From: Armatimonadota bacterium
GTDB lineage: Bacteria; Armatimonadota; Hebobacteria; CAIYQO01
DNA: 34,556 bases
Reading direction: 5' to 3'
Assembly: GCA_029553475.1 (NCBI GenBank)
Contig: JAKPKV010000100.1
Span: forward strand, 1 to 34,556
Shown: positions 4,449 through 31,038 of the stretch, one piece after another
Layout of the letters: each line of letters opens with the position of its first letter
How positions within the stretch are numbered: position 1 is the stretch's first letter
Position numbers and translations under genes: made by a program
Notes under the pieces: model-generated
The model's input: the letters and a program-made list of their open reading frames with translations, nothing else
What the model was told of the DNA's origin: nothing
The model's database searches: none

Positions 4449-4475
4449 TGCAGGAACTACCTCGGGGCCGCGAAT
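4449..4475 (+). promoter_or_regulatory. GCAGG-N14-CGCGAAT motif, copy 1 (FabG-like leader)
   Basis: GCAGG at 4450-4454 and CGCGAAT at 4469-4475, 14 nt apart. It lies about 204 nt upstream of the reductase start, further than the other copies. The function is unknown; the spacing resembles a -35/-10 pair for an alternative sigma factor. Confidence 0.45.
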
Positions 4476-4678
4476 ACCTCCCGAATTTCCGTGTGATCGC
4501 TCACACAGCGTGGATGCGGCGCTTGCGCTTTCCACTTCGTAGCTCCAACGACCTGATGATACCATGCCGCCTTTCCCGCGCAACCCCGGAAGGCGACGGA
4601 TTTTGGCGGCCTGTACGAAAAGGTAGACAGCAACGGCGGTCGAAAAGGAGATCATCAACGCGGAAGCGGGACCTGACC
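4476..4678 (+). promoter_or_regulatory. Structured leader of the FabG-like gene
   Basis: Some 200 nt with no credible gene. It holds a perfect hairpin GTGTGA-TCGC-TCACAC (4491-4506) and a second stem, GTGGA 4510-4514 with TCCAC 4531-4535, enclosing GCGC-TT-GCGC. AAGGAGAT occurs near 4645 but is about 26 nt from the chosen ATG. It could be a cis-regulatory RNA leader; no known riboswitch class is recognised. Confidence 0.4.
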
Positions 4679-5434
4679 ATGACAACTCCGATTCCCGAAC
4701 CGACAGTCGCCCTCGTCACCGGCGCGTCGCGCGGCATTGGCCGCGCCATCGCCCGCGCGCTGGCGGCGACGGGCGCGCCGGTGGCCATCACCTACCGCGA
4801 ACAGGCGGAGATGGCGCTGGAGGCCGTGCGCGAGATCGAAGGCGCCGGCGGCCGCGCCGCCGCGTATCAGCTCGACGTGCGCGACGGCGCGCGGGTGAAG
4901 GAGGTGGTGGAGGAAGTGGGCACGCATTTCGGCCCCATCGCCATGCTGGTCAACAACGCCGGACTGGTGCGCGATAATTACCTGCGCTTCATGGCGATGG
5001 AGGAGTGGAGCGACGTGTTGGAGACGCACCTGAACGGCGCGTTTCTCTGCGCGAAAGCGGTGCTGGCCGGCATGCAACGCCTGCGTTGGGGGCGCATCAT
5101 CAACATCAGCTCCGACGCCGCCTTCGTGGGTGACGTGCGCCGCGCCAACTACTCCGCCGCCAAGGCCGGCCTGCTCGGCTTCACCCGCGCCCTCGCTCGC
5201 GAAGTCGCCCCGCAGGGCATCACCGTCAACGCCATCTGCCCCGGCATGATCGCCACGGAGATGACCGCCGAGATGGAAGAGACCCGTCGCCAGGGGCTGC
5301 TGCGCGGCATCCCCGCCGGCCGCTTCGGCGCCCCCGACGACGTCGCCGCCCTCGCCGCCTTCCTCGCCTCGCCCGCGGCCGCCTACATCACCGGCCAGGC
5401 GATCTCGGTAGACGGCGGCCTGCACATGGGATAA
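4679..5434 (+). CDS. SDR-family oxidoreductase, FabG-like (3-oxoacyl-ACP reductase type)
   Basis: 251 aa classical short-chain dehydrogenase. It shows the nucleotide-binding TGASRGIG (14-21), NNAG (92-95), a catalytic serine around 144-145, and YSAAK with Y158 and K162. The C-terminal GQAISVDGGLHMG is typical of FabG. It would use NAD(P)H to reduce a ketone. 3-oxoacyl-ACP reduction in fatty acid synthesis is the commonest role, but no other fab gene is next to it, so another SDR substrate is possible. The start at 4679 puts the Rossmann motif at the usual distance; upstream in-frame codons encode an Arg-rich stretch unlike any SDR. A bidirectional hairpin follows directly after the stop. Confidence 0.85.
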   Translation: MTTPIPEPTVALVTGASRGIGRAIARALAATGAPVAITYREQAEMALEAVREIEGAGGRAAAYQLDVRDGARVKEVVEEVGTHFGPIAMLVNNAGLVRDNYLRFMAMEEWSDVLETHLNGAFLCAKAVLAGMQRLRWGRIINISSDAAFVGDVRRANYSAAKAGLLGFTRALAREVAPQGITVNAICPGMIATEMTAEMEETRRQGLLRGIPAGRFGAPDDVAALAAFLASPAAAYITGQAISVDGGLHMG

Positions 5435-8960: not shown

Positions 8961-8969
8961 ACCGTTCTC

Positions 8970-8996
8970 TTCGCTCGCGACGCCGAAATTCCTGCC
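8970..8996 (-). promoter_or_regulatory. GCAGG/CGCGA-GCGAA motif, copy 2 (pentapeptide gene)
   Basis: On the minus strand GGCAGGAA (from 8996 down) is followed by CGCGAGCGAA (8979-8970). The second half ends 10 nt before the ATG at 8960. It matches the copies upstream of four other genes. If it is a promoter, the transcript would be almost leaderless. Confidence 0.45.
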
Positions 8997-9018
8997 GGGG
9001 GTATCGTTGGAATACGCG

Positions 9019-10498: not shown

Positions 10499-10750
10499 CC
10501 CCGGCGGATTTGCACTCCGGAATGGCGCCTCCGCCCGGACGGCCTGAAGGCATTGGATGATTGTCACCGTGCAGTTCCACACTACCCCTGGACGAATTTG
10601 CCGCGCGCGGGACAACGGGACGTCCCACGACGGAGAGCTGGTCGCCGAGAGTCGGTATCGGTTTGTGGCTCATACCCCGCGGACAGGTCGCGAAATTCAT
10701 CACAACGGGTATGAGTAGCACGATGGCGATGAGGATGACGATGACGATTT

Positions 10751-10778
10751 GGCAGGAACCCGCGGCCCGCCTCGCGAA
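10751..10778 (+). promoter_or_regulatory. GCAGG-N16-CGCGAA motif, copy 3 (Gfo/Idh gene)
   Basis: GCAGG at 10752-10756 and CGCGAA at 10773-10778, 16 nt apart and 38 nt before the ATG at 10817. The first halves of copies 1 and 3 are identical over GCAGGAAC. Confidence 0.5.
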
Positions 10779-10816
10779 GTAGTCACCATCCCAGAACAGA
10801 TCAGGAGCACCAGATC

Positions 10817-11890
10817 ATGGCGAAGAAGTTGCGATACGGGTTGATTGGCTGCGGCGGCTGCGGGGTGGGGAAACATCTGGCGGCATACGCCAAGTATGCC
10901 GACGACGTGGAGCTGTACGCGGTGTACGATTTCGAGCCGGCCAAAGCCGCCGCGGCGGCGGAGAAATACGGCGTGCCGCACGTTTTTGACACGTATGAGG
11001 CGATGCTGGCCGACCCGAAGCTGGATGTGGTTTCGGTGGTGACGCCGAATGCCCTGCACGCGCCCATCACCATCGCCGCGCTGCGGGCGGGCAAGCACGT
11101 GCACGTCGAAAAACCCATCGCCCTCAACGCCGACGAGGCGCGCGCCATCGTGGCGGCGAAGGATGCGGCGGGCACGCTGGTGATGGTGGCGCTGAACAAC
11201 CGCTTCACCGAAGTGAGCCAGTTCATCAAGCGCTACGTGGACGACGGCCACCTGGGCGAGATCTACCACGCGCGCTGCGGCTGGCGGCGCCGGCGCGGCA
11301 TCCCCGGGCGCGGCGGGTGGTTCACGACCAAAGCGCTGTCCGGCGGCGGCCCGGTGATTGACCTGGGCGTGCATTTCTTCGACCTCACCCTCTTCTTCAT
11401 GGGCTTCCCGGCGCCGGTATCGGTGTCGGCGTCCACCTACTGCAAGTTCGCCAACGCGCCGTCCGGCGGTACGGGCACCTTCGCGGCGGCCGATGCGGCC
11501 GGCACCTTCGACGTGGAAGATTTCGCCGCCGGTTTCGCCAAGCTGGCCACGGGGGCGTCGGTGGCGTTTGAATTCAGTTGGGCGTCGAATATCGAGCGCG
11601 AGGTGAACTACCTGGAGCTCCTCGGCACGCGCGGCGGGTTGAGCATGTATAACGGCGAGCTGCGCCTCTTCGGCGAGGTGGGCGGCGCGCTGACCGACAT
11701 CACCCCGCACGTGCGGAATACCAGCGGATGGGGCGATAATGAGACGCGCCACTTCATCGCGTGTATCCGCAAGCGCCGCCAGCCGATGGCGCCGCCGGAG
11801 GACGCGGTGAAGATGATGCAGATCATTGACGGCATCTACGCGTCGGCGGAGAGCGGGCGCGAGGTGCGCATGGACGCGGTGCCGGCATAG
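10817..11890 (+). CDS. Gfo/Idh/MocA-family oxidoreductase
   Basis: 357 aa. The N-terminal Rossmann fold has GLIGCGGCGVGKH. The family signature HVEKPIALNADEA lies around residues 97-110. The C-terminal beta-sheet domain includes GGGPVIDLGVHFFDLTLFFMG, with the conserved Asp-x-x-x-His lining the active site. These enzymes oxidise or epimerise sugars, inositols or related polyols with NAD(P). AGGAG about 10 nt before the ATG supports the start. It is followed 100 bp later on the same strand by a large beta-helix protein with glycosidase features, suggesting a shared role in processing a sugar; the substrate is not determinable. Confidence 0.9.
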   Translation: MAKKLRYGLIGCGGCGVGKHLAAYAKYADDVELYAVYDFEPAKAAAAAEKYGVPHVFDTYEAMLADPKLDVVSVVTPNALHAPITIAALRAGKHVHVEKPIALNADEARAIVAAKDAAGTLVMVALNNRFTEVSQFIKRYVDDGHLGEIYHARCGWRRRRGIPGRGGWFTTKALSGGGPVIDLGVHFFDLTLFFMGFPAPVSVSASTYCKFANAPSGGTGTFAAADAAGTFDVEDFAAGFAKLATGASVAFEFSWASNIEREVNYLELLGTRGGLSMYNGELRLFGEVGGALTDITPHVRNTSGWGDNETRHFIACIRKRRQPMAPPEDAVKMMQIIDGIYASAESGREVRMDAVPA

Positions 11891-11990
11891 TGTGCGAAGA
11901 TTGCGCCTGCCGCGGGCAGGGATTTGGGCGGGACGGTGGCACTCTGTAGAGAGCGGGCACAGCTCCGCCCCGCTGGTGATGGAGGGGATC

Positions 11991-16221: not shown

Positions 16222-16237
16222 AAATTCGCTGACGCCG

Positions 16238-16264
16238 GCAGGCGTTTACACACCGGCGCCGAAT
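16238..16264 (+). promoter_or_regulatory. GCAGG-N14-CGCCGAAT motif, copy 4 (MlaE gene)
   Basis: GCAGG at 16238-16242 and CGCCGAAT at 16257-16264, ending 14 nt before the ATG at 16279. It is the most divergent of the five copies but keeps the spacing and position. Confidence 0.35.
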
Positions 16265-16278
16265 GAACAGCGACAGAG

Positions 16279-22139: not shown

Positions 22140-22266
22140 GCGCCGGGTCGAGCCGCGGCTGCCGGTTCGGCGAGCGTTTGTAGGGGCGCCGCGGCAGGGA
22201 GCGACCCGTGGGACGGCGAATAGTGTAAATAGCGGCCGGGTATCCTCCGGCCAGGTGAGTGATGTG

Positions 22267-30833: not shown

Positions 30834-30852
30834 GTATACCTCCTGTAGTGTG

Positions 30853-30881
30853 ATTCGCGCCGGGGCGACGGCGTCCCTGCC
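30853..30881 (-). promoter_or_regulatory. GCAGG-N16-CGCGAAT motif, copy 5 (lipM-like gene)
   Basis: On the minus strand GGCAGG (30881-30876) and CGCGAAT (30859-30853) are 16 nt apart, ending 20 nt before the ATG with AGGAGG in between. It is the clearest example of the motif placed as a promoter would be. Confidence 0.5.
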
Positions 30882-30900
30882 GAGAAACGTGACAGACCTG

Positions 30901-30929
30901 TTGACATCACCATGATTCTTTGGTATGAT
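30901..30929 (+). promoter_or_regulatory. Near-consensus sigma70 promoter for tRNA-Glu
   Basis: A perfect TTGACA (30901-30906), a 17-bp spacer and TATGAT (30924-30929). Transcription would start about 25 nt before the mature tRNA. Confidence 0.9.
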
Positions 30930-30961: not shown

Positions 30962-31038
30962 GGCCCCTTCGTCTAGTGGCCTAGGACGCCTGGTTCTCAG
31001 CCAGGAGATCAGGGGTTCGAATCCCCTAGGGGCTACCA
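30962..31038 (+). tRNA. tRNA-Glu (anticodon CTC)
   Basis: The cloverleaf is complete. Acceptor GGCCCCT pairs with AGGGGCT (first pair G-U), the D-arm is GTCTAGTGGCCTAGGAC, and the anticodon stem CCTGG/CCAGG carries loop TTCTCAG, so the anticodon is CTC. T-arm AGGGG-TTCGAAT-CCCCT. CCA is encoded. It resembles bacterial tRNA-Glu closely. It is transcribed alone from its own strong promoter and followed at once by a 12-bp hairpin. Reads GAG codons, which are favoured in this G+C-rich genome. Confidence 0.95.

Follow-up and report, generated by a model that had tools for sequence, protein, structure and literature searches.

A bipartite upstream motif in an Armatimonadota genome as the probable core promoter of an alternative sigma factor

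In the Armatimonadota genome analyzed here, a bipartite motif with the consensus (G)(G)CAGGAA-N16/17-gGCGAAT recurs upstream of genes and very probably marks core promoters read by an alternative sigma factor, i.e., a second promoter class of genome-wide scale, as judged from sequence. The window in which the motif was initially noticed is a stretch of 34,556 nucleotides that spans contig C158 in full. The genome (67% GC) comprises 5.27 Mb in 194 contigs, and a sample of 1.23 Mb from it was used for the statistics. Genes were called with a home-made dicodon model, which yielded the upstream regions and gene interiors, with start positions that are approximate.

A two-block EM was run unsupervised on 674 upstream regions with the spacing free from 17 to 27 and returned ccGGCAGGAA(T)(T)c as the first block and ggGCGAA(T)(A) as the second; of 250 weighted sites, 218 fell at two adjacent spacings (132 and 86). 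In the genome consensus obtained without supervision from the 1.23 Mb, AGG is separated from GAA by 18 or 19 nt only. Matches to the core matrix numbered 103 and 85 at these two spacings, compared with about 16 at other spacings. When the PWM was trained on part of the contigs and applied to the others, 44 and 32 held-out sites were recovered vs. 2–11 at other spacings. A seed-free test covering 64 x 64 x 23 spaced 3-mer pairs placed AGG-N18-GAA as the top dyad (97 observed, 28.6 expected), with the sigma70 dyad TTG-N19-GTA ranking below it (59 observed, 12.7 expected). At the PWM threshold used in this work (score 9), matches occurred at 1122/Mb in upstream regions in the sense orientation, at 26 and 23/Mb in genes and at 39/Mb in shuffled upstream DNA, while between convergent genes their density was near zero (3 and 1 matches); the PWM was partly scored on its own training regions, and the held-out and seed-free tests were concordant. 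Motif matches at score 9 were carried by 143 of 664 upstream regions (~21%; 3–5 expected by chance), the EM estimate of motif-bearing regions reached up to 37%, and the sigma70 share at a stringent cut-off was 27%. Extrapolated to the whole genome, this would amount to roughly 600 or more motif promoters. On contig C2, a near-perfect palindrome (GGCAGGAACGCCGCGCGCGGCGTTCCTGCC) that begins like the -35 block was also seen, at a distance of 296 nt before a gene on the plus strand; this could be a hairpin or repeat with no relation to the promoter.

A preliminary description of the window had listed five copies of a GCAGG/CGCGAA pair. Each of these sequences was confirmed at its stated position, and four of them fit one element according to the PWM, while the copy at 4449 is off-register. 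The features of the window are as follows:

30849–30883, minus strand: promoter-like element TCGGCAGGGACGCC-gtcgccccg-GCGCGAATCACA, AGG-N19-GAA (PWM 11.8), GAA 23 nt before the start of a lipoate/biotin-ligase-family gene
8965–8998, minus strand: promoter-like element CCGGCAGGAATTTC-ggcgtcgc-GAGCGAAGAGAA, AGG-N18-GAA (PWM 15.4), GAA 27 nt before the called start of a pentapeptide-repeat gene
10749–10783, plus strand: promoter-like element TTGGCAGGAACCCG-cggcccgcc-TCGCGAAGTAGT, AGG-N19-GAA (PWM 11.6), GAA 41 nt before the ATG at 10817 of a Gfo/Idh/MocA gene
16235–16268, plus strand: promoter-like element CCGGCAGGCGTTTA-cacaccgg-CGCCGAATGAAC, AGG-N18-GAA (PWM 12.2), before the MlaE permease gene
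22191–22225, plus strand: copy missed by the preliminary description, GCGGCAGGGAGCGA-cccgtggga-CGGCGAATAGTG, AGG-N19-GAA (PWM 13.0), GAA 49 nt before a mechanosensitive ion channel gene (MS_channel_2nd)
4616–4649, plus strand: weaker in-register candidate CGAAAAGGTAGACA-gcaacggc-GGTCGAAAAGGA (PWM 9.8), GAA 37 nt upstream of the FabG-like gene start at 4679
4449–4475, plus strand: FabG copy of the preliminary description, AGG-N17-GAA, off-register by sequence and spacing rule, probably a chance or sub-optimal site
11913–11946, plus strand: doubtful site before a GH141-like/beta-helix gene (PWM 7.3, below the threshold of 9)
30901–30929, plus strand: sigma70-type promoter TTGACA-N17-TATGAT of the divergent tRNA-Glu gene (sigma70 score 14.5, motif score 3.0)
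30962–31035, plus strand: tRNA-Glu gene, an ordinary sigma70 target (Rfam RF00005, 60.2 bits; ARAGORN tRNA-Glu)

The sigma70-type promoter at 30901–30929 is an internal contrast to the motif class.

In its exact form, the original pattern (GCAGG-N13-17-CGCGAA) had five matches in the window vs. 0.41 in dinucleotide shuffles, two of which (21341 and 34229) had not been listed, and two of the copies in the preliminary list deviate from it. Across the whole genome, this exact pattern gave 138 matches vs. 49 for the reversed pattern. Enrichment upstream of genes was found for the CGCN0-1GAA form, at 112/Mb in upstream regions in the sense orientation vs. 17 and 30/Mb on the two strands of genes, and it is diluted by chance genic matches; with both strands counted, the loose pattern occurred at 87/Mb in non-coding and 49/Mb in coding DNA. 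When the GCAGG-type sequences of upstream regions were listed, a stricter rule was noticed (AGG and GAA 18 or 19 nt apart), so that the free spacer of 13–17 gave way to a fixed spacing, AGG-N18/19-GAA, since free spacing admits matches in coding regions.

For comparison, a sigma70 model was derived independently from these upstream regions, giving TTGAC-N17/18-TATAAT. The motif was found in 142 regions, sigma70 promoters in 177, and both in only 8 (expected 39.6 ± 4.7), an overlap so low that it was reached in none of 5000 length-matched permutations. The two classes share their position relative to genes, with the same distance profile to start codons and a sharp leaderless peak in each. For leaderless sigma70 genes, the distance from T(-12) to the ATG peaks at 12 nt (9 genes), and for leaderless motif genes the G of GAA lies 13 and 14 nt before the ATG (10 genes), never less than 12. 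Leaderless starts indirectly indicate a fixed distance from the -10 block to the transcription start (13–14 nt from the G of GAA to the ATG), parallel to the 12 nt of sigma70, and the motif has the makeup of a core promoter, with two boxes at near-fixed spacing, located upstream of genes and co-oriented with them. Leaderless genes are frequent in the upstream regions of this genome (L031–L090 and the window).

The leaderless register puts GAA at -13 to -11, with A at -11 in 100% of the sites, T at -7 in only 22% (background level) and A/G at the predicted start in 65%. The A at -11 is the base flipped out of the duplex by sigma factors of the sigma70 family, while T at -7 is required for RpoD. 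Despite the invariant A(-11), the motif does not therefore resemble an RpoD promoter, as its boxes differ and T(-7) stays at 22%. The sigma70 class of the same genome has TTGAC/TATAAT boxes with T(-7), serves tRNA and prepilin genes, and the two exclude each other. An upstream promoter could be scored for seven tRNA genes, the tRNA-Glu of the window among them; all seven have the sigma70 type and none the motif. An eighth tRNA called by ARAGORN has neither a sigma70 promoter nor the motif upstream.

The motif, its spacing, strand and position, the exclusion of sigma70, the leaderless register and the recurrence in other Armatimonadota can be read directly from the DNA, and we infer from them that RNA polymerase would start at motif sites through a non-RpoD sigma factor. 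Such a factor would recognize two boxes spaced 18 or 19 nt apart, one at -35 that resembles CAGGAA and has its AGG at about -35 to -32, the other at -10 with the sequence GGCGAAT, whose GAA covers -13 to -11. Transcription would begin about 11 nt past the final A of GAA, with each transcription unit using either the motif class or the sigma70 class and rarely both. The start previously predicted at 6–8 nt past GCGAA is about 3 nt short of the position indicated by the leaderless genes. The earlier proposal of a -35/-10 pair for an alternative sigma factor is well supported by spacing, exclusivity and leaderless register, and its attribution to an ECF-like factor is possible only.

The motif is also seen in relatives. 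In the Armatimonadetes MAG UR.bin144 (L091), the ortholog of the ligase gene (88% protein identity) has both blocks upstream with the register kept (GGCAGGGA...CGCGAA) and a diverged spacer, and the distance from the GAA side to the ATG is 24 nt there vs. 23 nt in the window. Among 250 other Armatimonadota, GGCAGGRA-N16/17-GAAW exceeds its reversed control widely and in many families (motif:control 57:0 in the own genome, 52:0 in G224, 84:4 in G011, 21:1 in G054 and 16:0 in G089), while in most members of family f15 it stays near the control; family f17 and genus g58 likewise count as poor in the motif. Spacing tests in six other genomes were positive for G224, G044 and G083, marginal for G085, weak for G022 and negative for G081. 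These tests replaced an EM on 200 kb of each of the six, which was over-fitted except in G044 (family f7), where it converged on GCAgGAa/gAa at spacings 22–23.

As readers of the motif, RpoE/SigW-like ECF sigmas that have reciprocal-best relatives in distant families are the foremost candidates, with L097 and L092 ranked first. The genome has 20 sigma70-region-2 genes, comprising RpoD, three group-3 sigmas (L095, L096, and L103) and ECF-type sigmas. In a comparison covering 15 loci from each of G089 and G054, the sigmas with reciprocal-best relatives in both genomes were RpoD and, of the ECF type, L092, L097, and L100 only.

The reader could be L097 (contig C176), an RpoE-like ECF sigma encoded beside bamA, which would then serve as a constitutive second housekeeping sigma tied to the building of the outer membrane; we regard this as a tentative assignment. 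Among NCBIfam models, RpoE matches it best, with a lead of 29 bits, and it has reciprocal-best relatives in families f7 and f26. Its gene adjoins bamA in families f1, f7 and f26 (in f7 and f26 between tamB and bamA), and in all three loci (L097, L287, and L290) the sigma gene directly precedes bamA with no zf-HC2 anti-sigma gene adjoining. ECF promoters typically have GGAA in their -35 box. Furthermore, the place beside bamA fits the LPS and envelope genes of the motif class, which include lpxD, kdsB, a KpsF/GutQ-family isomerase and mlaE, and in E. coli sigmaE transcribes lpxA, lpxB, lpxD and yaeT/bamA (PMC2215328). On the other hand, many motif targets are not envelope genes, the promoter of L097 itself in this genome looks sigma70-type, and nothing links L097 directly to the motif. 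Autoregulation of the L097 relatives in f7 and f26 was considered and rejected, as the motif matches there sit in conserved C-terminal codons of the preceding gene.

Somewhat more doubtful is L092 (contig C96), a SigW/RpoE-like ECF sigma that would be autoregulated through an upstream motif. The motif lies upstream of it in all three genomes of family f1, with the blocks AGGAACTT and GGAACACA conserved in two of them, and close relatives of L092 occur in 121 of 121 genomes tested; most relatives in other families, however, are without the upstream motif, several have sigma70 promoters, and the adjoining zf-HC2 anti-sigma gene suggests a stress sigma.

ECF promoters of the RpoE/SigW type share with the motif a GGAA-like -35 box and the -35/-10 architecture, and RpoE/SigW-like sigmas with distant relatives are present. 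The ECF consensus has a GGAAC-like -35 box, a CGT/GTC-like -10 box and a spacer of 16–17 nt, whereas the motif has AGG rather than AAC at its core, CGAAT rather than CGT/GTC at -10 and a -35 to -10 distance shorter by 1–3 nt, a difference that also counts against L097. Moreover, the motif class is far larger than the usual ECF regulon. ECF genes are often, though not always, preceded by the promoter that their own product reads, a pattern seen here for L092 in family f1 only and not for L097. As an alternative sigma that shares housekeeping transcription, the proposed reader would resemble mycobacterial SigB (PMC6529629), which is a group 2 sigma and co-transcribes SigA-type targets, whereas the boxes of the motif are quite different from those of sigma70 and the upstream regions are partitioned.

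A group-3 sigma, either the SigF-like GGDEF fusion L095 or the SigB-type L096, is an unlikely reader. The type 3 promoters of cyanobacterial SigF (Synechocystis pilA1 and sigF) have TAGGC at -32 and GGTAA at -12, i.e., the same AGG in the -35 box and a -10 box likewise ending in AA, at nearly the same centre-to-centre distance (20 nt vs. 20–21 nt for the motif), and they differ in their other letters (GGTAA vs. GCGAA at -10) and in their small regulon linked to pili and motility (PMC2758279). Relatives of L095 are widespread in the phylum, and its gene overlaps a PilC/GspF-like gene. Unlike the cyanobacterial promoters, the motif occurs in Armatimonadota without SigF-type sigmas, and no prepilin-like targets were found for it. 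The near-complete, motif-positive genomes G089 (16 vs. 0) and G054 (21 vs. 1) are without orthologues of both L095 and L096 and keep the motif, hence SigF/SigB-type sigmas cannot be its universal readers, and in the motif-positive families f5, f12 and f28 the L095 matches look L096-type. Within the own genome, prepilin-like GFTLIE proteins were encoded by none of 134 motif-class genes, by 5 sigma70-class genes and by 13 unclassified genes. A SigF-like pilus regulon, appealing for the position of L095 behind pilC and for the TAGGC/GGTAA boxes, was dropped for the lack of prepilins in the motif class and for the absence of the sigma from motif-positive genomes. The L095 locus itself (also L232; C3:19411–20751, minus strand) encodes a SigF/SigB-like sigma of 447 aa with a GGDEF domain and starts inside the stop codon of the PilC/GspF-like gene, and full-length relatives of about 420–500 aa are found in many Armatimonadota families.

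It is still less probable that the motif, instead of being a promoter, is a binding site through which a nucleoid protein or a global transcription factor acts on nearby sigma70 promoters. Dimeric regulators commonly bind bipartite elements whose halves are about two helical turns apart, and the motif is found genome-wide, but neither of its blocks repeats the other, it excludes sigma70 promoters instead of accompanying them, and its -10 block is in the leaderless register, where A(-11) is invariant and no further -10 box follows downstream. An effect of chance or base composition in a genome of 67% GC, for which the roughly twofold enrichment of the loose pattern in non-coding over coding DNA could be cited, is already refuted at genome scale by the spacing-specific peaks, the strand bias, the held-out test, the seed-free dyads and the recurrence in other families.

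Returning to the motif as a promoter of an alternative sigma factor, the genes behind it cover diverse functions. They include metabolic and translational genes (pyruvate kinase, RNase PH, the ribosome recycling factor gene frr, and lumazine synthase) as well as L-ribulose-5-phosphate epimerase, an aminotransferase and a flotillin, beside the LPS and envelope genes named above; in the window the targets are MlaE, the lipoate/biotin-ligase-family enzyme, Gfo/Idh, the pentapeptide protein and the mechanosensitive channel. The sigma70 targets include FtsZ, MurA, GalE, PyrH, GlyA, prepilins and tRNAs. A bias towards secreted proteins was looked for and none was found. The lipid or envelope regulon suggested earlier is therefore too narrow for a class that is genome-wide and in which metabolic and translational genes stand beside some LPS and envelope genes; an envelope flavour is present, but the class is broader. 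Two of the proteins behind that suggestion also turned out differently, the LipM-like one belonging to the lipoate/biotin ligase family and the one resembling FabG being a generic short-chain dehydrogenase. In the same genome, pyrH (L040:4012–4737) has a sigma70 promoter and frr (L040:2054–2614) a motif promoter of its own, so that a commonly linked pair, often operon partners in other bacteria, is split between the promoter classes here.

No description of such a promoter class was found in the open-access subset of the literature that was searched. The genomes of Armatimonadota are noted for the dispersal of genes that are usually found in operons, and a coordinating role has been suggested, without a mechanism, for the many sigma factors of the phylum (PMC4959169). 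A second code that is nearly as common as sigma70 and avoids it would be a concrete mechanism for coordinating scattered genes, and it would provide promoter predictions for an almost unstudied phylum. More speculatively, and with a good deal of doubt, an ECF sigma such as L097 may act as a second constitutive housekeeping sigma for a fifth to a third of the promoters in much of the Armatimonadota. If true, the genome would be partitioned between two promoter codes, which could compensate for the dispersed operons of the phylum.
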